From Tranzscheliella williamsii (lineage: Eukaryota; Basidiomycota; Ustilaginomycetes; Ustilaginales; Ustilaginaceae), in assembly GCA_023212725.1 (NCBI GenBank), contig JALBYF010000100.1, positions 1 to 43,707 of the forward strand: a stretch of DNA of 43,707 nucleotides, in the 5' to 3' direction. The translations under genes were made by a program, and so were the position numbers. The notes under the pieces are model-generated. The model made no database searches. It was not told the DNA's origin and worked only from the letters and a program-made list of their open reading frames with translations. Shown one piece after another: positions 2,421 to 43,707 of the stretch. The stretch's first letter is position 1; the number at the start of each line of letters is the position of its first letter.

Positions 2421-2515
2421 GTTATAAAAAGAAATTCGTATTAGCAAAAATTAACAATAGAAAATAGCTATTTTCTGTTCTGTTTTGTTCTGTTATGTTA
2501 TGTAATAATATAGGT

Positions 2516-3871
2516 ATGGCCAAACTATTTCTATATCCATTTATTTCACTAGTAGCCATTTCTGTTTTCTCCTACCGAATTACCAAAAAGATCCTTATCT
2601 TTGATCAACAACTATTTCTAATTATTCTAATTTGTATTACTCTATTTTATCAAACAGGTCTACTAATTGATGAACTAGCTTCTGATATAAATGTTAATCT
2701 GAGTATAACTGTTGGAACTTTTGCATGCTATTCTGAGAAAAAGAAGAATATAAATAATATAGATAACAAGGATAGCCAAGAAAGTTTTTGGAAAGAAGTT
2801 TTCGAAAAAGATCTAGGACAAAATACTACTAACCCTCATATTATTGCTCGACGACATATCATTTCCGGTAATAAAACAGATATTAATGTACTAAATAAGA
2901 TTCTTGAGAATAAATTTCAATTTCAAAGTATTATTTCTGAAGAACTAGAGGAACTTCTAAAAATTAAACCTAATACGGTATCTTATTGCTTTCCTGAAAC
3001 ATCAGAAGTAAATAAGAAAAAAATTCTAGAGCTTATTGGTAAACGTAATAAAACTCCTAAATATGCTGGTATCTATATTTGAACTAATAAACTAACTGGG
3101 GAGCAATATGTTGGTAGTAGTATTGAAATAGCAAAACGTGTTGCTAATTATAAACAAGATATTAATAAAAATATAACACGTCCAATTATTACTAATATGA
3201 CTAAGTATGGTATTGAAAACTTTAATCTTACTATTTATCTAGTTGAACTAGTTCAAACAAAAGATACTAAAGATAATAATATTAACCTAATCCGAAAACT
3301 GATTATTCTTGAACAATATCTTATTCTTACTCTTAATCCTTCTCTTAATATTGTTAAAATTGCTAATACTGCACCTTATACAGATCATTCTAATCTATCA
3401 CCAGAAAAATGGAAAAAAATGGTAACAACTATGTCTCAACCCGTTTATCTATACTTTGATGATGTTCTAGTATTTTATGCTCCTAGTACTACTATTGGTG
3501 CATCTCAACTAGGTATTGGTCTAACATCCTTTTTCCGAAATATAAAGAATGGTACTAAACTATTTCGCCGTTATACTGTTTCACGAATTGGACCTATTGA
3601 TAATACTAAAGTATCTCTTATCCCTGCAGAAGCTCTGAAAAAACTGTTTGAGAATTACCGAGTAGAATCTCGTGTTGGTCTTAATACTAATTCTATTCAG
3701 GTTATAATTAAGGATACTATTAACAATAATGAACACATTGCACCTTCTATTACTATAGCATCTACTTATACTTATAATACTAAGGATCGTAGTGTAACTA
3801 TTAAAACACTACGAAAGTCACTTAATACAGGGCGCGTTATCAAAGGTTGAATTTTTACTAAAGGGGGATAA
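2516..3871 (+). CDS. GIY-YIG homing endonuclease inserted behind nad1 (one in-frame TGA)
   Basis: Free-standing homing endonuclease gene. The reading frame is open from ATG 2516 (or 2495) to TAA 3869-3871 only if TGA at 3080 and 3848 is read as Trp. The catalytic module straddles the first TGA: AGIYI, then Trp, then TNKLTGEQYVGSS (about 3065-3120), the usual position of an aromatic residue. A C-terminal DNA-binding-like region (PVYLYFDDVLVFYAPS, about 3439-3486) is shared with the other GIY-YIG genes here. The N-terminus is a chimera: 2543-2585 nearly repeats nad2 bases 30781-30825 (one 3-base gap, one substitution). The gene sits between nad1 and a displaced nad1 end. If TGA is stop here (trnW has anticodon CCA), the gene is split and inactive. 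Confidence 0.82.
2543..2585 (+). repeat. nad2 5'-end fragment embedded in the nad1-linked endonuclease
   Basis: The stretch matches nad2 codons around residues 7-21 (30781-30825) with one codon deleted and one C-to-T change. Both encode VFSYRIT. The following residues still show loose nad2-like spacing, ending LAS. Its presence at the head of a mobile gene implies that the element once sat in or next to nad2. Confidence 0.8.
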
Positions 3872-3970: not shown

Positions 3971-4004
3971 TTATTTCTCTATTTTTAGGATATATTTTTT
4001 TACA

Positions 4005-4094
4005 TTCTGTTGGACAGGGATGCTTCCTATTGCTATTGCTCTTCTAATTCTTGTACCAAGTATTCTAATTGCTTTTGATATTAGTCCTTACTAA
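4005..4094 (+). pseudogene. nad1: Displaced 3' end of nad1
   Basis: Thirty codons starting FCWTG and ending DISPY plus TAA line up without gaps with nad1 2301-2390. The protein differs at about four conservative positions while roughly a quarter of the bases differ, mostly at third positions, so it diverged under selection before losing its function. It has no start codon and no upstream nad1 sequence. Its own C-rich motif follows at about 4133-4140. I read it as the original C-terminus pushed downstream by the GIY-YIG insertion. Confidence 0.92.
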
Positions 4095-4231
4095 TAAAAA
4101 TATAACATATATTTTATTCTTAAATAAAATTACCTCCCCTTTTTCAATTAAAATATATATCTTATATATATTTTAATATCTGTAAAGGAATAACTAAGAG
4201 TTTATTTATATATATTATTTCTACAAATAAT

Positions 4232-13479: not shown

Positions 13480-13761
13480 ATGGCACTAAATGAAATGAAT
13501 CTTTCAGTAATTCTATTTCTTATTGGGATTCTAGGTTTTGTTCTTAACCGAAAGAATATTATTCTTATGCTAATCTCAATTGAACTAATGCTGCTTGCTG
13601 TAACACTACTAGTACTAGTAAGTTGTTATAGCTTTGATGACATTCTTGGTCAAACATATAGTATTTACATTATTGCAATTGCTGGTGCAGAATCAGCAAT
13701 TGGTCTAGGTATTCTAGTTGCATACTACCGACTACGAGGAAATATTAGTCTTCGACAATAA
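13480..13761 (+). CDS. nad4L: NADH dehydrogenase subunit 4L
   Basis: Small three-helix membrane subunit of complex I, 93 residues. The typical ISIELMLLAVTLLVL (about 31-45) and the C-terminal AGAESAIGLGILVAYYR are present. The TAA stop overlaps the nad5 ATG by one base (TAATG), the common fungal arrangement that implies co-transcription and probably coupled translation. Confidence 0.97.
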   Translation: MALNEMNLSVILFLIGILGFVLNRKNIILMLISIELMLLAVTLLVLVSCYSFDDILGQTYSIYIIAIAGAESAIGLGILVAYYRLRGNISLRQ

Positions 13762-16700
13762 TGTATCTAACACTTCTTCTTCTACCAATGTTTGGATCTG
13801 CTGTTGCAGGTCTACTAGGGCGAAAAATTGGAGTAACAGGAGCGCATATCATTACATGTTCTTGTCTAATTATTTCTGCTATTCTGGCTATTGTAGCATT
13901 CTATGAAGTTGGACTATGTAATAGTCCAGTATCAATTAATCTAACTAGTTGGATTGATTCAGAACTAATGGATGTATCTTGGGGATTCATGTTTGATAGT
14001 CTAACAGTATCAATGCTTCTGCCAGTTCTAGTAGTTTCTAGCCTGGTACATATTTTTTCAGTAGATTATATGAGTTCAGATCCACATAATCAACGATTCT
14101 TTGCGTATCTTAGTATGTTTACATTTTTTATGCTTGTTCTAGTAACTGGAGATAACTATCTAATTATGTTTGTAGGTTGGGAAGGAATTGGTATTTCATC
14201 ATATCTACTAATTAATTTTTGGTTTACACGAATTCAAGCAAACAAAAGTGCAATTAAAGCACTAGTAGTAAATCGAGTTGGAGATATGTTTCTATCTATC
14301 GGATTTTTTGCTATTTTTTTTGTATTTGGTAATCTAGATTATAGTACAGTATTTAGTATTGCTCCTTTTATTAACGAAACAATTATTACTATTATTGGGC
14401 TGCTACTACTACTAGCTGCTATGGGTAAAAGTGCTCAACTAGGTCTACATACGTGGCTACCAGATGCTATGGAAGGACCCACACCAGTTAGTGCTCTAAT
14501 TCATGCTGCTACTCTAGTTACAGCAGGAGTATATCTTCTACTACGGTCATCACCTGTAATTGAATATGGACCTACAACACTTATTGTAATTACTTGGGTT
14601 GGTGCTCTTACAGCATTTTTTGCTGCATCTACAGGACTACTACAAAATGATCTAAAACGGGTTATTGCTTACAGTACATGTTCACAAATGGGTTACCTAT
14701 TTATGGCTTGTGGACTAAGTCAATATAATGTAGCACTATTCCATCTAGTAAATCATGCTTTCTTCAAAGCCCTTCTATTCCTAGCTGCTGGTGCTGTTCT
14801 GCATGCTACATATGATCAACAAGATCAACGTCGACTTGGAGGTCTTATTGGATTTCTACCTTTTACATATACAGCTATTCTAATTGGTAGTCTAAGTCTT
14901 ATGGCTCTACCTTGGCTAACAGGATTCTACAGTAAAGATCTTATTCTAGAGGTTGCTTATGGACAGTATGAATTCTCTGGACAAGTAGCTTACTGGCTTG
15001 GTACACTAAGTGCATGTCTAACAGCTTTCTATAGTCTACGACTTATTAGTCTAACTTTTCTTACATATCCTAATGCAAGTAAATCAATCTATGTACATAC
15101 ACATGATGCGCCTACAATTGTTATGATTCCTCTTATTATTCTATCTCTACTAGCTATTTTCTTTGGATATGTAGCGCGAGATCTATTTGTTGGTATGGGT
15201 TCTGATTTTCTATCACCTAGTCTATTTACACACCCATCACATATCAGTCTTATTGAAGCAGAGTTTGGACTACCTCAAATTATTAAACTTCTTCCTGCTA
15301 TTGGAACTCTAATGGGTGCAGGACTAGCCCTATATCTATATCATATGCTACCTGTATTTACTATTGAGCTAACAAATAACCCTCTAGGACAAAAACTTTA
15401 TCGATTCTTTAATGGTAAATACTATGTTGATGTTATTTATAACCATTACATTATTAATGGTGGACTTCAACTAGGATATATTATTAGTAAAGTTCTAGAT
15501 CGAGGTATTATTGAACTAGTAGGACCTTATGGTCTAGCAAATGGACTTACATCTGGAAGTAAAGATATTGCTAAACTGGATACTGGTAACCTAACTAATT
15601 ATGCTCTATATCTAGCAATTGCTCTAGTGACTCTAGTTATGATTCTTCTAAGTCCTGTACTACTTAATGCAGCACTAATTAATGCTCGACTAATTCTAGT
15701 ACTTCTTGTAGCTATGGTATGTATTCCATATATTAGTAGTAGTTCCAATGATGCTACAGTTAGTCAGAACCGTTCAAGCAAAATTCTAGTAAGCTCTATG
15801 CTTCCCCTTCTATTTATTTATCCTGATACAGGTATGGTTAACGATGTCTATTATTTTGAAGATGTAGTGTTTAGTAGTAGTATTGCAAGTTCAGTTTTTA
15901 TTAGTTCAACTATGGCTAATTACGGGAAGTCCAGTCTAGAATTTATTACTTCAATTCGATATCGACTTTATGCTACAATGCTAAAGCTTTTTATGTCACC
16001 TCTTCTTCATTTCTTTGTTGTACTAGCACTTTCAATGCTAATTAATATCTTCCTTATTGCCGGTCCGGTATATTGTGCAGAAGAAACAATTACTAATTCT
16101 GCTAGTACTTCTACAGCTGCTGCTAGTATTTATATAGATACTCCTACTACGGCTGTTCGTCCTATTTATCTAGAACATAATAATAATGGTATGGTTGACT
16201 TTGCTGCCAAAACTGTATCCGTTGCAACGGATGCAGCTATTCGAGCCACACCTTGGGATACCATTGTGGGAGCATCATCAACAGTTAAAACAACTGTTGA
16301 GGTTTACAAAGCTACACCAGGATCAGTTCGAACTAAATCTATTGCAGGACTAAGTGTGGGCTTTGCAACAGGAGGTTTTGTTTATGCTATGGGACGTGGC
16401 GATTCCATTATAAAGCCTATTACTCCTAAGCGTGAGGATGTTGACAAACACAACCAGTTTATTCCCTCTCCTCTTGAAGAAGGAGATAGTAAACTGAACT
16501 TTCTAGAATCTATCTATCTATTTCTGGTAGATTGGATGTCATCGTCAGCAGATGGTGTTGTCCGACTTGGTAATAGCACAGGTGCGGATATTATTAGTAA
16601 TATGTATGCTAATTTTTCTTTCAGCAGTTTTAATCTACTTGTTTATCTCATGACTACAGTGGCTTGTTACTTTGTATTCTTTGGTTTTACTCTATTCTCG

Positions 16701-17462
16701 CTATACTACTTCAACAATATTAGTACATCAAAACTAGTTAAATCTAACCTAGTTTCTTCAGTAACTGTAGAATACTTTACACGGCTAATCCGGAATATTA
16801 TTGGAATTAACAAAGTAATTCTTATCTTTCTATTTATAATTATCCTAGCATGTAGCACGCTTCTTTATATTTATTATGAAATTACTCCTGATATAGCAAC
16901 TAAATTTTATAATAATGTTGTGCAAAAAGTCTACAATGGACAAACTCACATTATTCTGAAATATCTGTATTATAACGTTGCTATCGAAACTTTCCAAAAA
17001 GCATCTCTAGTAATCACAGCAGTTGTACTTTCGTTTTATCGTTGGTCTATTACGAAACAGCTACTTAAAGATTATCCTTACGCGAAGATTCCATTTGCAT
17101 TTATTATTGTTTTTACTATGCAAATTACTACCAATTTTATTATAAGTATTGTAGCAGTAGAGAACAGTACATTTATTCAAATCCTTACTACGCATAATCT
17201 GTGTACTAAACTAGTATTCTACTCACTTACTTTTATTCTGATCTCAGTTACAATTCAGCATATTCTTTACAATAATTCATCAACTAAAGAAAAACTGAAT
17301 AATTCTAGCCACTCTTCTTACCTGTTTTATAATATTACAATTATTGTACTAAAGATCGTAACATCTGTGGCATTTATGTGTGCATCTCAAGGTATTCTGT
17401 ATCTTTATACACATTACATCCCAGGAGATCTACACCATCTTTGTACTTTATATTCCAGGTAA
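13761..17462 (+). CDS. nad5: NADH dehydrogenase subunit 5 with a ~500-residue foreign C-terminal fusion
   Basis: Residues 1 to about 660 are a normal nad5, the antiporter-like subunit of complex I: GWEGIGISSYLLINFW, the proton-channel helices with AAMGKSAQLGLHTWLPDAMEGPTPVSALIHAAT, HAFFKALLFLAAG, and the lateral-helix end with TNYALYLAIALVTLVMILLSP. The frame then stays open for roughly 570 more residues. A membrane segment ends in PVYC (about 768-771). A low-hydrophobicity Ala/Thr-rich stretch, the motif FIPSPLEEGD, at least five membrane helices and a closing LYTHYIPGD follow. Codons such as CTC, TCG, GCC and CCG become more frequent. The final codons (ACT TTA TAT TCC AGG) are unlike core usage. 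Whether the product is cleaved or made as a fusion cannot be told. Confidence 0.93.
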   Translation: MYLTLLLLPMFGSAVAGLLGRKIGVTGAHIITCSCLIISAILAIVAFYEVGLCNSPVSINLTSWIDSELMDVSWGFMFDSLTVSMLLPVLVVSSLVHIFSVDYMSSDPHNQRFFAYLSMFTFFMLVLVTGDNYLIMFVGWEGIGISSYLLINFWFTRIQANKSAIKALVVNRVGDMFLSIGFFAIFFVFGNLDYSTVFSIAPFINETIITIIGLLLLLAAMGKSAQLGLHTWLPDAMEGPTPVSALIHAATLVTAGVYLLLRSSPVIEYGPTTLIVITWVGALTAFFAASTGLLQNDLKRVIAYSTCSQMGYLFMACGLSQYNVALFHLVNHAFFKALLFLAAGAVLHATYDQQDQRRLGGLIGFLPFTYTAILIGSLSLMALPWLTGFYSKDLILEVAYGQYEFSGQVAYWLGTLSACLTAFYSLRLISLTFLTYPNASKSIYVHTHDAPTIVMIPLIILSLLAIFFGYVARDLFVGMGSDFLSPSLFTHPSHISLIEAEFGLPQIIKLLPAIGTLMGAGLALYLYHMLPVFTIELTNNPLGQKLYRFFNGKYYVDVIYNHYIINGGLQLGYIISKVLDRGIIELVGPYGLANGLTSGSKDIAKLDTGNLTNYALYLAIALVTLVMILLSPVLLNAALINARLILVLLVAMVCIPYISSSSNDATVSQNRSSKILVSSMLPLLFIYPDTGMVNDVYYFEDVVFSSSIASSVFISSTMANYGKSSLEFITSIRYRLYATMLKLFMSPLLHFFVVLALSMLINIFLIAGPVYCAEETITNSASTSTAAASIYIDTPTTAVRPIYLEHNNNGMVDFAAKTVSVATDAAIRATPWDTIVGASSTVKTTVEVYKATPGSVRTKSIAGLSVGFATGGFVYAMGRGDSIIKPITPKREDVDKHNQFIPSPLEEGDSKLNFLESIYLFLVDWMSSSADGVVRLGNSTGADIISNMYANFSFSSFNLLVYLMTTVACYFVFFGFTLFSLYYFNNISTSKLVKSNLVSSVTVEYFTRLIRNIIGINKVILIFLFIIILACSTLLYIYYEITPDIATKFYNNVVQKVYNGQTHIILKYLYYNVAIETFQKASLVITAVVLSFYRWSITKQLLKDYPYAKIPFAFIIVFTMQITTNFIISIVAVENSTFIQILTTHNLCTKLVFYSLTFILISVTIQHILYNNSSTKEKLNNSSHSSYLFYNITIIVLKIVTSVAFMCASQGILYLYTHYIPGDLHHLCTLYSR
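15712..17462 (+). mobile_element. Unknown membrane-protein cargo inserted in the nad5 3' end
   Basis: This is the non-nad5 part of the fused reading frame, beginning with a stretch (15712-15858) duplicated at 17571-17717. I do not recognise the protein. It has an N-terminal membrane helix ending PVYC, a middle region rich in Thr, Ala and Val with one Gly-rich helix (AGLSVGFATGGFVYAMG), the motif FIPSPLEEGD, then five or so hydrophobic helices. The protein in cox1 intron 2 (38802-39731) shows the same order of elements. There are no GIY-YIG, LAGLIDADG, polymerase or reverse-transcriptase motifs. Confidence 0.8.
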
Positions 17463-17570
17463 TACCTATAATATTTATTAAAAATAATAGATTATTTTAT
17501 TCCCCTTTCAATAAATAAATAAAAAGCTTAAATCATCTAAAAACAGGATATCTTTTACTTTCTTTAGATT

Positions 17571-17717
17571 TTCTATCTTATTCTATATATTTTTAATTCT
17601 AATGATACTAATAGTAACCCTGTTCTTTCCAATAAAATCCTAGTCAATTTAATGCTTCGACTTCTATTTATTTGATTAGGTATGAGTAATGATATCTATT
17701 ATTGTTCCGACAAATAG
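17571..17717 (+). pseudogene. nad5: Displaced copy of the nad5 C-terminal region
   Basis: These 49 codons, read with TGA as Trp, give a peptide with LYIFNSND, KILVNLMLRLLFI and MSNDIYY before a TAG. It aligns with nad5-fusion residues around 651-699 (PYISSSSND, KILVSSMLPLLFI, MVNDVYY). It begins 109 bases behind the fusion stop and after a C-rich motif (17501). The relation matches the displaced nad1 and atp9 ends. Because the aligned part runs beyond the usual end of nad5, it may include sequence of the element itself. Confidence 0.78.
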
Positions 17718-17789
17718 TTTAGGTTCTCTTTCAGTTATCATAAAAATACATTTGGATATACTATAGGAATACTATAATAAGTATTTTAA

Positions 17790-17865
17790 GGTAATACTAG
17801 CTTAATTGGTAAAGCGCCAACCTGTGGAGTTGTGTTTATTCCGGTTCAAGTCCGGAGTTTTACCC
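17790..17865 (+). tRNA. trnH: tRNA-His(GUG)
   Basis: Acceptor GGTAATA/TTTTACC with one mismatch, stem CAAC/GTTG around CTGTGGA giving GUG, T-loop TTCAAGT. Confidence 0.9.
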
Positions 17866-17916
17866 TTTCATTTCTTACCCTCACTTTCCCTTTTTATAAT
17901 AAGCTTTGTATAGGTA

Positions 17917-18893: not shown

Positions 18894-18976
18894 TGTGAGT
18901 GATAGGACTTGAACCTACACAGTCTAAGACTACCGACTCCTAAGGTCGACTTGGCTACCAATTTCAACACACTCAC
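18894..18976 (-). tRNA. trnL: tRNA-Leu(UAG)
   Basis: Class II tRNA on the minus strand with variable arm TAGTCTTAGACTG. Stem CGAC/GTCG around CTTAGGA giving UAG. It is the only Leu tRNA I find, and CTA is by far the main Leu codon in the core genes. Confidence 0.94.
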
Positions 18977-19228
18977 TTGTTTATATAGCTATCTATATAC
19001 CTATATAAGTTATATATACTAGAGGATCTAAATATCTGTTTTTTTAATGATTTATTCCTTAATTCTATATAAGACTTAATTTAATTTTATAAAGTAAAAA
19101 AATTAAATATTAAATAAATTTAACTTGTTAAAATAAGATAAGTATATTTTTAAGATACGATACTATTAGAGAGTATAAAAGGGGAATCTTTTCCCCGGAT
19201 AGGTTAGGTTATTTTTTATTTATACTTA

Positions 19229-19347
19229 TTATGAGTATTGTAGAAGGAATGAAACCATTAGAGCAAATAGTCCAGTAGTTAAAATTTTATTATTAATAAT
19301 AAAATTTTAACTGATAGAGCGAATCCTAGGATAGTGTAAGTAAATAT
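19229..19347 (-). pseudogene. atp9: Displaced 3' end of atp9, interrupted by a palindrome
   Basis: Reading the minus strand, ILGFAL, then a 36-bp perfect palindrome (19277-19312), then [12 protein letters not shown] and YS plus stop reproduce the end of atp9 exon 2 (20551-20643). About nine bases of coding sequence are replaced by the palindrome. The downstream flank is duplicated too: the G/C hairpin and CCGGATAGGTTA occur near 19182-19207 and again near 20493-20526. It lies behind the GIY-YIG pseudogene, as the displaced nad1 end does. Confidence 0.9.
19277..19312. mobile_element. 36-bp perfect palindrome inserted in the displaced atp9 end
   Basis: Arms AGTTAAAATTTTATTATT / AATAATAAAATTTTAACT with no loop. 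Functional atp9 lacks it, which shows that it is an insertion or replacement. Confidence 0.85.
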
Positions 19348-19354
19348 AAAAGAT

Positions 19355-20440
19355 CTACTTTACTTTAAGATAGTCAAATGGAGGTACTTGTACATGTTTC
19401 ACATATTCTATTACATCAATAAACTTAAAAAAATACTTATCCTTAAGAGGTTTAGTACGGCTAACTGAAATAGAATCGATATTACAACCAATATGTTTAG
19501 CAGTGTCAGCTACAGATTTATAGTAACTCTTTGTATTATCAGTTACATTGGTTACTTCAACACAAATAGGTGAAGTAATACTAGGCTGCAGTGATAGCCA
19601 CTGAATAAACTCTATTAGTTGAATTTCCGATACAGGTAGGAAGAACTGTATTATCTAGAGTTGTCTTAGAAAGGAATAGCTGATGATGATAGAAACCACC
19701 CCGATCAATAATAGTTGCAGCCCACTTACGTCCTTTATTCATTAGATGACTAAGGGCAGATAGACTAGTAAGAGATGACAGGTAATAGTAAGTATTATCA
19801 TTAAGCCAGTAAATGTGAAGATTTTTACCTACTTTTTCAATATGCTTAGTATTATCCATATCTGGATTACTGTAACCAGGAGATGCAACAAAAGCACGAT
19901 TGATAGTTGGTTTAAGTAGGAAAAATAGATATTGTTCTAGAATTAGAACAAATTGTGCTATAGTAATATGTGAGGGTAGTAGGAAAGGGTCTGAAATATA
20001 TACTCGTACCATAGCATTAGATCCTGCAGCTTGTACTAGTTTCCCTGTAGAATTTTGTAGACCTTTAGCATGATCTTTCACTCGTTTCCCTAGATGAATA
20101 GAGTGTCCTACATAAGTACCAAGTTCAGGATGGTTGGGTGAATAGATATAGTAGCAACCAGGTACTTACTTGGTACTATTTTCAGGTCCTACTTGCTCAG
20201 AAAATGTAAAAGCATTTTCTGAGTTAGGTACAGGTAGTGCTAGTTCAATAGTTTTTAGATTTTCACAAATAGATAGTACTTCTTCAGTAACAATACCTGC
20301 CGGTAGATCTAGTGCTGCACTAATATTGTAAACTGTTGGTTTACTATTATTAAGAATTTAGTTTTAACAAGAGCTTCACGTTTAATACGGTTAATCCAGA
20401 CTTCTCGTTTAGAGAAAAGAGTTTGAGAAAATTTAAACAT
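19355..20440 (-). pseudogene. Broken GIY-YIG homing endonuclease behind atp9
   Basis: Read on the minus strand from ATG 20440-20438. MFKFSQTLFSKREVWINRIKRE opens the protein; a frameshift falls near 20355, an in-frame TAA just before the catalytic module (about 20165), and a second frameshift near 19625. The GIY-YIG module is GCYYIYS followed by GTYVGHS (about 20160-20100). The long middle ORF (20081-19581) has ILEQYLFFLLKP and a C-terminal region NLHIYWLNDNTYYYLSS that matches the DNA-binding-like part of the nad1-linked enzyme. The last frame, KSYYKSVADTAKHIGCNID, is NUMOD1-like and ends at TAG 19355. Three lesions make it a pseudogene unless read through. Confidence 0.88.
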
Positions 20441-20492: not shown

Positions 20493-20526
20493 TGAAAGGG
20501 GAAGCATTGCTTCCCCCGGATAGGTT
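20493..20526 (-). terminator. Hairpin and C-rich motif behind atp9
   Basis: On the minus strand GGGGAAGC-AAT-GCTTCCCC is a perfect 8-bp hairpin ending in the C-rich motif TTCCCCTTT. A near copy follows the displaced atp9 end (about 19182-19200). Confidence 0.7.
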
Positions 20527-20550
20527 ACGTTCTATTACTTTAGTCGAGAA

Positions 20551-21110
<560 letters not shown>

Positions 21111-21504: not shown

Positions 21505-21556
21505 ACCGTCGCTATAAATAGTACTATTTATAGTTGTTCATTTAATAATATAATTT
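21505..21556 (+). repeat. 52-bp inverted repeat, left copy (beside nad6)
   Basis: Perfect reverse complement of 22498-22549. It contains an inner 22-bp palindrome centred on AGTACT and a GTTGTTCATTT arm related to the AAACGAACAA palindrome family. With its partner it brackets nad6. Confidence 0.9.
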
Positions 21557-21634: not shown

Positions 21635-22297
21635 CTAGTTTGTTTGTGTTTTATTCATAGAAAGAGTAATTGGTCCAACCATTGCTAGAAGAAGAATCAC
21701 ACTAGCAACAATAAGCCATAGAGCACCTGTTGTATAAATACTGTAACCAATACTTTGGATTTGTAGAAAGTTAGCAAATTGTGTATCAGCAGCCATAGCA
21801 TTAAATGTATAATGTACATGACTAATAGGGCTATATTGTGCTGATTCAACACCTAGAAATACAGAGTTAAACCAATTTAGAATACCAAGCTCTGCTTGTG
21901 GTAGAAGACTGGTCACTGTATTAATATTAAAAGAACCATTTACTGAAGCTGTTCCTGTAAATGGAAGAATAGAAACTAGTTCAAATAGGAATAGACTACC
22001 AATAATTGTCCCTAGAGGTAGGTTTTGTGTATATTCTGTACCTACTGCACTCAGTTCAGTTAGTTGTAGATTAAGCATCATAACTACAAATAGAAATAGA
22101 ATAGCAATAGCCCCAACATAAACAATTAGATATGAAATACCAATAAACCCTACACCTAGAAGTACAAGATAACCTGCAACATTAACAAAAACAGAAATTA
22201 GGAATAGTACAGAAATTACTGGATTTTTAGATGTAATAACTAGAATTCCAGAAAGAATAGCACCTAGTGCTAGAAAATCAAGTAGAAAATTATTCAT
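21635..22297 (-). CDS. nad6: NADH dehydrogenase subunit 6
   Basis: Membrane-arm subunit of complex I, 220 residues. Five helices can be drawn; VLFLISVFVNVAGYLVLLGVGFIGISYLIVYVGAIAILFLFVVMMLNLQ, quoted here only by its ends VLFLISVF and VVMMLNLQ, includes the family hallmark YLIVYVGAIAILFLFVVMM with its pi-bulge helix. A long hydrophilic loop follows (about 120-165). It lies on the minus strand with atp9, opposite to most genes, inside a perfect 52-bp inverted repeat. Its C-rich 3' motif is CCCC at 21627-21630 on the minus strand. Confidence 0.97.
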   Translation of the reverse strand: MNNFLLDFLALGAILSGILVITSKNPVISVLFLISVFVNVAGYLVLLGVGFIGISYLIVYVGAIAILFLFVVMMLNLQLTELSAVGTEYTQNLPLGTIIGSLFLFELVSILPFTGTASVNGSFNINTVTSLLPQAELGILNWFNSVFLGVESAQYSPISHVHYTFNAMAADTQFANFLQIQSIGYSIYTTGALWLIVASVILLLAMVGPITLSMNKTQTN

Positions 22298-22497: not shown

Positions 22498-22549
22498 AAA
22501 TTATATTATTAAATGAACAACTATAAATAGTACTATTTATAGCGACGGT
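22498..22549 (-). repeat. 52-bp inverted repeat, right copy (beside nad6)
   Basis: Perfect partner of 21505-21556, about 940 bases away across nad6. The rest of the nad6-rnl spacer (22298-22687) holds an imperfect hairpin with AACGCATA facing TATGCGTT (about 22358-22401) and GGAATCGATAAC near 22665. No gene is seen. Confidence 0.9.
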
Positions 22550-26114: not shown

Positions 26115-27223
26115 GAGCTGTTGTCCCTTTCTATTTATAAATAGAAAGAAAATTGGGTGAATTGCAAGGATCTCTTATTATTTTAGTAAGACAACTTGCA
26201 GCTAAGCTTAAATCAGTGTATATTTATTTTTTATAATAAGATAGTGATTTAAGAAAGTTCAACGACTAATCGGTGAGTTACACTAACAATAATCCGAACA
26301 CGAGCGCCCAACATTTAATAAACAAAAAACATACTACGAGAAAATAAATAATATATAATGAACAATAAGAATATTACACGAGACATGCTAATTTCTATTA
26401 AAGAAGAACTAGCTAAAAAGGGTAAAACACTAAGTCCTAATTCGAAATATTTTAAGGAATACAAAGAAACTCTAAACGGATTCTCAGAGTCTCAAAAAGA
26501 AAGTGCTATCGGGCATCTTCTTGGAGATGTTCGAATTGAACAAGCTAAGAGTGGTAATGGACATCTTATGAAATTTGAATGGGCTAATAAAGAATACGCT
26601 CAAAATGTATATGAAGAATTTAAATCATATATTATTACACCACCGCGTGAACAAAAACGTATTAACAATGCTGGAAATGAAAATGTTACTTGGTGTTTTC
26701 AAACTATTGTTCATCCAGATATAGATGATCTAGGTAATCTTTTTCTGAAAGACAGTAAAAAAGTTCTTAATGATAAAGTATATGAAAACATTAGTCCTCG
26801 ATCACTTGCTCGTTGGTTAATGGATGATGGTGGAATGAACGGGAGTCATTCACATGGTCTTCAGTTTCATACACAAGGATTTAGCCATTTTGAAGTCATA
26901 AAACTTTGTAATACTCTAAATTCACGTTATCAATTCAATGCTTGGATGGGTACTAATAAATCTAAACCTGTTATTAATATCCCAGCAAATCAATATCAAC
27001 GATTTATTGAAATTACAGGAGAGCATATCTATGATTGTATGAAACATAAATTCAAGATGCGATAGTTTTTAATACCCTTTATACTTTTATTTTCTCTATT
27101 GTATATGCCTACTTAAATAATAATTACTTATTTATTTAATGGTTAATTAAATGATGACATAGTCTAAACTATATAGTGATATATAGAAAAATAGTATTAA
27201 ATGTGCTATTAGTAATAAAAATG
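26115..27223 (+). mobile_element. rnl intron 2, omega-type group I intron
   Basis: The exon junction TAGGGAT / AACAGG is the site of the yeast omega intron, target of I-SceI. The core includes GGGTGAATTGCAAGG and TTCAACGACTAATCGGTGAG (26258-26277); the P7 partner ATGACATAGTCTAAAC lies near 27153, behind the ORF. The intron ends in G. Confidence 0.93.
26358..27065 (+). CDS. LAGLIDADG endonuclease, omega (I-SceI) family
   Basis: Intact 235-residue free-standing intron ORF. It has the two motifs AIGHLLGDVRIEQ (about 51-63) and LARWLMDDGGMNG (about 150-162), with the catalytic Asp in each, and flanking features of the I-SceI family: KFEWANKEYAQNVYEEF, ITPPREQKR, TWCFQTIVHP and LQFHTQGFSHFEV. This and the omega insertion site make it the probable homing enzyme for that site. 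It uses a TTA Leu codon (LARWL), which I do not find in the core genes, suggesting an outside origin. Confidence 0.95.
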   Translation: MNNKNITRDMLISIKEELAKKGKTLSPNSKYFKEYKETLNGFSESQKESAIGHLLGDVRIEQAKSGNGHLMKFEWANKEYAQNVYEEFKSYIITPPREQKRINNAGNENVTWCFQTIVHPDIDDLGNLFLKDSKKVLNDKVYENISPRSLARWLMDDGGMNGSHSHGLQFHTQGFSHFEVIKLCNTLNSRYQFNAWMGTNKSKPVINIPANQYQRFIEITGEHIYDCMKHKFKMR

Positions 27224-28533: not shown

Positions 28534-28766
28534 GAAAAGTAAGTGAAATGCTAAAAACTCTATTTGGTAAAAAGTTTATGTTTATCTAGTTGAAAATAAT
28601 AAATACACTCTTATTCAAATTTGCTCTAGTCATGCTACTTTTGCTAATATTCTAGGACATTTTTATAAATGGGTAGCTCAAATTATTAATCGAGGAAGAC
28701 TATATCGTAATACAATTTTTTCTATCTGATAAACTATTGAAAATACTCTTGAAAATTGTTTGCCTT

Positions 28767-30762: not shown

Positions 30763-32379
30763 ATGCTTTCAATTGGTCTAATTTCACTACTAGTAGCCAT
30801 TCCTGTTTTCTCCTACCGAATTACCCCAAGTCTATTTAATCGAATTACATCTATAGTTCTAATTTATTCCGCTCTACTGGCTTTTAATGGTCTACATGTT
30901 GAGTCACTAGCTTCCGGAGTAGGTATCTATAGTGGACTATTTCATGTAACTACAGTATCACTAGCTGTTGAAGGATTTCTTCTATTCACAGGAGCTCTAA
31001 TTCTACTGGGATGGGGTCCTGTAACTGATAAGACAAATGCACAATCAGCTACGACAGTAGTACCAACTATTAGTGAATATTCTCTAATGGTTCTATTTAC
31101 ATCAATAGGTGCTACACTACTACTAAGTAGTTCAGATCTAGTAAGTATGTATCTAAGTATTGAACTACAAAGTTTTGCTGTTTATATTCTAGCAACACTT
31201 TATCGAGATTCAGAATCAGCAACTAGTGCTGGTCTAAAATATTTTCTACTAGGTGGTCTTTCATCTGCTCTAATTCTTCTAGGTACAGCACTAATTTATA
31301 GTTATACTGGACTTACTCAGTTTGAAAGTATTTATACTCTAGTACAAGTAACAGGATCAGATTCTATTATTACAGATAATACAACAACACTGCCTTATAC
31401 TAGTGGTGTAACATGTGGACTACTTCTAATTGGTATTGGATTCCTATTTAAAGTAGCTGCAGCACCTCTACATAATTGGGCTCCAGATGTTTATGATGGT
31501 GTACCCACTATTGTAACAACTTGGCTAACAACTATGCCAAAAATTTCTATTTTTGTATTTCTTCTAGAACTTCAATCAGGACTAGAAGGTAGTTTTGAAT
31601 CACTAAGTCTACTTCTAGGAGATAATTCTATTAATATTTGGAAAAACCTACTACTTACGGCTAGTATTCTTAGTCTTATTATTGGAACTGTAGTAGGGCT
31701 TAGTCAGTATCGAATTAAGCGACTTCTAGCTTACAGTACTATTAGTCATGTAGGATTTCTACTACTAGCTCTAGCAATCAATACGGAAGAATCAATTGAA
31801 TCCTTCCTATTCTATCTAATTCAATATTCAATTACAAATGTTAATACATTCCTAATTCTACTAGCATTTGGTTATATTATGAGCACAAGTAAGGCATATC
31901 TAGCAAATTCAACAACAGCAGAACGACTATCTGTAAATAGTACGGATATTCAATTTATTGATCAACTTAAAGGACAATTTAAACAAAACCCTCTACTAGG
32001 TCTAAGTCTAGCTCTTTGTCTATTTTCTATGGCAGGTATTCCACCACTAATTGGATTCTTTGCTAAACAAATGGTTCTATATTCAAGTACTCATGGTGGA
32101 TATTATTTCCTATCTGTTATTGCTATTCTAGTAAGTGTTATTAGTGCTTCTTACTATCTAAAAATTATCCGAGTTATTTACTTTGATAATCCTGTGAATG
32201 GTACTGATATTCAAAATATTACAGTAGATTCTAATAATACTGTACCAACATCAACAATTACAAATGTACACAGTCTACTAATTTCTAGCCTAACTATGAT
32301 TATTGGACTATTTGTACTACAACCATCAATCCTACTAAATAGCTGTCACATTCTAGCTCTATCACTATTTTACTACTAA
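30763..32379 (+). CDS. nad2: NADH dehydrogenase subunit 2
   Basis: Antiporter-like membrane subunit of complex I, 538 residues. Typical parts are [21 protein letters not shown], the channel segment [21 protein letters not shown] (quoted by its ends [11 protein letters not shown] and PDVYDGVPT), [19 protein letters not shown] and [16 protein letters not shown]. There is no intron. Its stop overlaps the nad3 start by one base (TAATG), so the two are probably translated from one mRNA. Part of its 5' coding end has been copied into the mobile endonuclease behind nad1 (2543-2585). Confidence 0.97.
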
Positions 32380-36110: not shown

Positions 36111-41838
<5,728 letters not shown>

Positions 41839-43671: not shown

Positions 43672-43707
43672 TTATTTTCGTGCTGCTTTCTCTTTTAAAA
43701 TTGGTTA
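43672..43707. repeat. Terminal 36-bp direct repeat, right copy
   Basis: Perfect copy of 42-77. It reaches the last base of the window and supports circular closure between trnV and cox2. Confidence 0.85.

Follow-up and report, generated by a model that had tools for sequence, protein, structure and literature searches.

Fusion of core genes with inserted coding sequence has been described in several fungal mitochondrial genomes. In Glomus sp., atp6, atp9, cox2 and nad3 are presented as hybrids with displaced native C-termini, the inserted open reading frame (ORF) being in phase in atp6 and nad3, and PMC3630166 marks the native tails as present in the mRNA for atp9 and nad3, and not for atp6; an atp6 hybrid of Allomyces macrogynus is also recounted there. 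In the smut Sporisorium scitamineum, copies of the tails of atp9, cox1, nad1, nad5 and nad6 are described behind these genes, with GIY-YIG ORFs in between (PMC4466345). Plasmid-linked transmembrane ORFs are described in Agaricomycete mitogenomes (PMC4201751, PMC10234125), and signal peptides are predicted for two plasmid ORFs; according to the same descriptions, introns of two species harbour plasmid genes, and no such genes are present in the other classes of basidiomycetes that were studied. A 350-aa ORF with five transmembrane segments is given for Lentinula (PMC9744193). Shorter C-terminal extensions are listed for cob and nad6 of Phlebia (43 and 122 additional residues, PMC4019555), and in Austropuccinia nad1, called nad2 elsewhere in the same paper, is in phase with orf162 (PMC7951889). 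Here, the nad5 locus of Tranzscheliella williamsii is analysed in a window of 43,707 nt (contig JALBYF010000100.1), which from its gene content is the mitochondrial genome. In this locus nad5 continues in phase into a 533-residue protein of membrane type, and a second, displaced nad5 tail lies downstream; it is somewhat probable that a foreign nad5 3' end together with a plasmid-like membrane gene recombined into nad5 and displaced the old tail.

The fused nad5 frame and its displaced tail

The nad5 frame is open from 13761 to 17462, comprising 1233 codons without any TGA. Proton_antipo_N, Proton_antipo_M and NADH5_C are matched up to residue 628 (Pfam), and the alignment of solved Nad5 chains ends at residue 663 or earlier among the best 60 of 66 matches in PDB, the best chain, Chaetomium 7zm7, pairing residues 1-674 of its 679 with residues 1-663 of the query; for Phlebia radiata, 668 residues are listed in the row that precedes atp8 in the table, a row which by the stated gene order is nad5 (PMC4019555). 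As the original prediction had claimed, about 570 residues of the frame lie past the usual end of Nad5. The features are collected in Table 1.

Table 1. Coordinates of the nad5 fusion, of the displaced tails and of the ORF in the cox1 interval
Feature	Position	Strand	Basis
Resident nad5 core, residues 1-666	13761..15759	+	Pfam, PDB alignment, core-type codon usage
Fused nad5 tail, putative substitute, residues ~647-700	15700..15860	+	repeated downstream; accessory-type codon usage
Extension, residues 701-1233 and stop; membrane-protein cargo in phase with nad5	15861..17462	+	
Displaced nad5 tail, putatively the resident one, with its own stop (17715-17717)	17556..17717	+	similarity to 15700-15855
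Displaced nad1 tail	4004..4114	+	behind GIY-YIG ORF 2495-3871; 76.6% over 111 nt, 25/29 residues
Displaced atp9 tail, disrupted	19178..19278	-	74.8% over 107 columns to 20495-20600
ORF of 312 aa, membrane type, between cox1 exon parts FWFFG and HPEVY	38802..39740	+	collinear two-half test

The stretch 15700-15855 recurs at 17556-17703, on the same strand and 1.85 kb away. The Smith-Waterman score is 67, and none of 2000 first-order Markov shuffles exceeded 39; in a scan of both strands at 50-nt steps, with the nad5 locus excluded, none of the windows away from the displaced tail scored above 32. The two copies share 75% identity over 76 nt in blastn (E 6e-6) and 20 of 38 residues in tblastn, and contain two ungapped blocks, one of 47 nt (77%) and one of 45 nt (71%). 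The similarity on which the original prediction of a second junction copy had hinged is therefore present, although the coordinates had to be corrected to those given here. The frame of the displaced copy is kept from 17595 to its stop, two codons short of the fused copy, and the approximately 40 nt upstream of 17595 are out of frame and match only with gaps. From this copy, the original resident nad5 seems to have ended in ...YYCSDK, about 40 residues past the point where the solved homologues stop, whereas the fused copy reads on. Two of the seven Leu codons of the displaced tail are TTA, a higher share than in the 14 core segments (3/615, Fisher p 0.001) or the extension (1/51, p 0.036), and the tail also contains one TGA; because of this enrichment in TTA and the presence of TGA, the displaced tail is probably not translated now.

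The locus shares with endonuclease-driven gene hybrids of the mORF type a substitute C-terminus that continues the frame of the host gene and a displaced native C-terminus downstream, in agreement with the predicted insertion at the nad5 3' end in the manner of a homing element. The inserted ORF, however, contains no endonuclease, and for this reason the insert is not filed among these hybrids, although it works like one.

Translation of the extension

The extension has a single in-frame TTA, compared with 64 in the two remaining forward frames (p 6e-11), which contain 28 and 40 stop codons; the probability of 533 open codons by chance at its base composition is 3e-12. The avoidance of in-frame TTA indicates that the extension is translated here or was formerly translated in a donor, and on this codon evidence, which like the fusion and the displaced tail can be read directly from the DNA, it is selected for translatability in one of the two. 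A chance or dead untranslated frame, comparable to the short fused extensions of Phlebia cob and nad6 that PMC4019555 calls putatively non-translated, is hardly credible in view of the length of the open run and the strength of the in-frame TTA avoidance.

By codon usage, all 14 core segments lean to the core side (0.004 to 0.143) and all six endonuclease ORFs to the opposite one (-0.018 to -0.132). The extension (-0.058) is on the accessory side, together with the ORF of the cox1 interval (-0.092), rps3 and a 166-aa ORF, and by its codons it behaves as a real accessory-type gene joined to a core gene. TTA is close to absent in all gene classes; tRNA-Leu(UAG) is called at 18894-18976 and tRNA-Leu(UAA) was not called in the window in four ARAGORN runs, so that the mitogenome may have abandoned the TTA codon.

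The membrane protein carried by the extension

The motifs PVYC and FIPSPLEEGD, noted in the original prediction, are found at residues 769-772 and 900-909 of the fused frame. Six hydrophobic segments have a mean hydropathy of at least 1.6 (748-766, 959-977, 1019-1037, 1115-1133, 1147-1165 and 1188-1206), and a seventh, weaker one lies at 1073-1091. The first segment is preceded by 15 residues with three basic and no acidic positions, is followed by 15 residues with two acidic and no basic positions, and comes before PVYCAEE; by these features it would resemble a membrane leader. Judged by hydropathy alone, the cargo is multi-pass with a leader-like first segment, as plasmid-linked membrane ORFs are.

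The predicted lack of a nuclease motif holds as well: neither LAGLIDADG nor GIY-YIG is matched in the nad5 frame (Pfam, E up to 1), and no GIY-YIG similarity was detected at 15.8-17.8 kb by tblastn with the GIY-YIG ORF behind nad1 as query. The extension has no family match in Pfam or NCBIfam, and its best matches in sequence searches of PDB (E 0.55) and PHROGs (E 0.31) do not point to a relative. No relative was found in GTDB contigs, nor in IMG/VR, a result of little weight as the nad5 core matched nothing there either, nor in PLSDB, a collection in which fungal plasmids are not to be expected. In the 18.2 Mb assembly of the species itself, the sole match to the extension is the nad5 locus, which does not bear out the prediction that the cargo is itself mobile or rides on mobility supplied in trans; on its sequence the cargo is without recognisable mobility function of its own, and its mobility is hypothetical. 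Since no relative was found, the plasmid ancestry of the cargo is argued by analogy. Structures predicted with AlphaFold2 without relatives were too poor for a fold search (mean pLDDT 38.5 for the extension and 42.7 for the cox1-interval ORF). A two-helix module in two copies within the extension was considered and rejected, as 1062 of 3000 block shuffles matched its similarity.

An intron with a copied exon end, as predicted for Tremella fuciformis, would give a mature message ending in the second tail; the Tremella introns with host-gene duplications include nad5-i1 (PMC7315562). This alternative is very improbable: no group I or group II core is found in 15600-17900 (Rfam, E up to 5, with a limited sensitivity, the likely group I core of the cox1 interval having escaped it too), the second tail contains both TTA and TGA and is broken in its upstream part, and nad5-i1 of Tremella turned out, in the account of PMC7315562, to be part of the cDNA.

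Divergence and codon class of the tails

The differences between the two nad1 tails are mainly silent, with a pN/pS of 0.10 that none of the neutral-decay simulation runs reached, and for the nad5 pair a pN/pS of 0.59 compares with a simulated neutral-decay median of 1.16, a fraction of 0.019 of the runs being as low. By this measure, descent from two lineages would fit the tail pairs better than a decayed local copy, strongly for nad1 and moderately for nad5. Codon usage in the nad5 frame changes from core to accessory type after residue 666 (likelihood change point, with 581-678 within two log units), and residues 656-700 have a codon score of -0.111, with one of 81 core windows scoring as low. 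The change point coincides with the start of the duplication and not with its end at about residue 700, which suggests that the fused tail probably came with the insert. In nad1, likewise, the tail in place has an accessory-like score (-0.099) and the displaced one a core-like score (+0.088).

These data bear on a purely local event, in which the 3' end of nad5 would have been duplicated in place, one copy would have decayed and loss of the stop would have fused a membrane ORF already present downstream. The copies lie on the same strand, 1.85 kb apart, and nothing points to a donor, as such an event would have it. The low pN/pS of the nad5 pair, and the far lower one of nad1, the codon switch ahead of the end of the duplication, and the similar divergence of the tail pairs in all three genes concerned, which suggests a common mode, make this event unlikely.

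Several observations weigh against recombination with foreign DNA bringing a plasmid-like gene. The pN/pS of nad5 is only moderately under the neutral expectation, the change point might be shifted as well if the C-terminus of Nad5 is weakly constrained, and the TTA avoidance might be partly inherited from a donor of like codon habit. The displaced nad5 tail scores -0.248, less core-like than the fused copy and the reverse of nad1, although decay may lie behind this low value, and residues 701-745 score +0.026, the scores of the tails and of these residues being taken from short, noisy stretches. Because of the latter score, and because rps3, an ordinary gene, is on the accessory side too, codon class is no proof of foreign origin. 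In addition, the databases searched hold no relative of the cargo, PolB (PF03175) has no match in the whole assembly at E up to 1, RNA polymerase not having been searched for, and clear terminal repeats are absent, with just two AT-rich inverted pairs of 14 nt at 15808/17511 and 15847/17478.

Tail pairs at nad1 and atp9

The ORF behind nad1 carries a GIY-YIG domain (Pfam 6.7e-8). The atp9 tail sits behind a GIY-YIG-like remnant (19581-20285) with an internal stop, similar to the GIY-YIG ORF behind nad1 (tblastn, E 8e-7), and the 166-aa ORF of this remnant alone has no Pfam match. With nad5 included, the identity of the three tail pairs is 75-77%. The displaced tails thus bear out the layout that the original prediction had considered equal to that of nad5, but the intervening ORFs at nad1 and atp9 are not fused to the host gene, and the arrangement is similar rather than equal.

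Two side observations concern these elements. The leader of the ORF behind nad1 resembles the start of nad2 (30763-32379), with 97% identity over 37 nt (2548-2584 versus 30789-30825) and 20 of 49 residues, as if the element had formerly been resident in nad2. The stretch 28574-28762 resembles the GIY-YIG-like ORF behind atp9 (28% over 64 residues, with an internal stop) and is perhaps a further old insertion.

A probable relative in the cox1 interval

The ORF between the two cox1 exon parts contains PLYC at residues 55-58, after its leading helix, and YIPSD close to its end. When both halves of this ORF and of the extension are compared in collinear order, the scores sum to 145, which was reached by 0 of 4000 shuffles at block sizes of 12 and 25 (maxima 138 and 139) and by 3 of 4000 at block 6; the best of 101 control pairs gave 107, and swapped halves 29 and 37. 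The C-terminal module alone matches the ORF at a level reached by 3 of 3000 shuffles (gap 11/1). The blast segments taken one by one are weak (E 0.027 and 0.049 in one direction, 0.006 and 0.100 in the reverse), with E values of 0.001 and 0.002 in a two-sequence comparison, and equally good values against the extension were obtained with the leader of a GIY-YIG ORF (E 0.044, or 4e-4 without composition correction) and with the reversed extension (E 0.041). Over the full length, 3, 88 and 157 of 1000 local shuffles reach the score under three gap settings, the middle parts give no signal (833, 641 and 710 of 1000 shuffles), and MAFFT placed the ends differently. Since the collinear sum stands out and the single segments are weak, the ORF is graded a probable distant relative of the extension. 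A match between the first two-helix module of the extension and this ORF was rejected, 1588 of 3000 shuffles being as high.

The ORF has no Pfam match, and its best NCBIfam values are E 0.11 and 0.28. Upstream of it, at 38458 and 38600, are motifs resembling R and S of group I introns, and 27 nt of this region recur without change in the intron 37323-37634, which Rfam confirms; the cox1 interval itself was not confirmed as an intron by Rfam, and in it no other ORF of 100 aa is found on the + strand.

This probable relative near group I-like motifs, in an interval otherwise devoid of such ORFs, agrees with the extension being the cargo of a homing element for which a GIY-YIG endonuclease of the same genome cuts in trans, as does the like layout with GIY-YIG ORFs behind nad1 and, as a remnant, behind atp9; insertions of this type are also described at a smut nad5 3' end (PMC4466345). 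The lack of an endonuclease domain in the extension and of GIY-YIG similarity around it, and the single copy of the cargo in the assembly, render trans-homing an unlikely explanation. A broader proposal, tentative and on the whole doubtful, is that a family of nuclease-free membrane proteins travels through the mitochondrial genomes of fungi in homing-type sites, such as the nad5 3' junction and a cox1 intron, and gains its expression from fusion to an essential gene, Nad5 being made as a polyprotein with the membrane protein.

Proposed origin and consequences

In the preferred explanation, recombination with foreign DNA, the donor would be either the mitochondrial genome of a relative or a plasmid with a captured nad5 end. 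The donor molecule would recombine with the resident nad5 over the shared nad5 sequence, and the resident 3' end would be replaced and the old tail pushed downstream, as in the fungal gene hybrids. The frame would then pass through the foreign tail into the membrane gene, which would thereby use the promoter and start of nad5. Nad5 would be made as a fusion, which complex I may tolerate as it is or which may be cleaved close to the first added helix (748-775).

If the proposal of a travelling membrane-protein family is true, there is a further kind of mitochondrial cargo besides endonucleases and plasmid polymerases. If the fusion is translated, a core subunit of complex I bears an unrelated membrane protein almost as long as itself, and its processing and the assembly of complex I become directly testable. 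The locus would show that the foreign-tail exchange of homing endonucleases can bring other genes into an essential frame, and in this way mitochondria could retain and express membrane genes of unknown function.

Genome context

The source assembly comprises 18,183,561 bases in 135 contigs, one of which, contig C3, is the window. Its termini, 42-77 and 43672-43707, are identical over 36 nt, which suggests a circular mitochondrial molecule. On the minus strand, nad6 (21635-22297) is flanked by a perfect inverted repeat of 52 nt (21505-21556 and 22498-22549), which could allow a flip-flop inversion. A group I intron by atp9 (20761-20918) and another in rnl (26155-26309), which lie on opposite strands, share 83% identity over 160 columns.

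Comparison with described systems

The nad5 locus and the hybrids of Glomus and Allomyces, as far as these are described in PMC3630166, are alike in the substitute in-phase C-terminus, the inserted ORF and the displaced native end, and the tail copies differ by 19-36% there and by 23-25% here; the systems differ in that the inserted ORFs are LAGLIDADG or GIY-YIG endonucleases there and a membrane protein here. The likeness to Sporisorium scitamineum extends to the genes affected, with nad1, atp9 and nad5 among them, and to the tail copy behind the full gene; nevertheless, the intervening ORFs described in PMC4466345 are of the GIY-YIG type, and none of this type lies behind nad5 here. In Tremella fuciformis the end of the host gene is also duplicated around the insert, with nad5-i1 kept in the cDNA, but the inserts are described in PMC7315562 as introns with homing endonuclease genes, and no intron core was found here.

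In the character of the cargo, the Agaricomycete ORFs portrayed in PMC4201751 and PMC10234125 are likewise multi-pass, of unknown function, with a codon usage of their own and in some cases located in introns; the likeness is one of description, these accounts do not report such ORFs as fused with core genes at a displaced-tail junction, and the PolB gene is missing here. In Phlebia and Austropuccinia a core gene also runs into extra coding sequence, although the extensions given in PMC4019555 and PMC7951889 have 43, 122 and 162 residues and the accompanying descriptions do not mention a displaced tail, whereas the extension of nad5 has 533 residues and is selected for translatability here or in its donor. 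The literature searched, from which subscription journals were mostly absent, yielded no account of a membrane protein without a nuclease being fused behind a junction of this displaced-tail type. In summary, the undescribed kind of mobile gene considered in the original prediction does not extend to the type of invasion, which is published for Glomus, Allomyces and Sporisorium scitamineum, with a smut precedent at nad5 itself; as far as seen in these sources, the membrane-protein cargo and the sign of its translation are what the Tranzscheliella williamsii locus adds to them.

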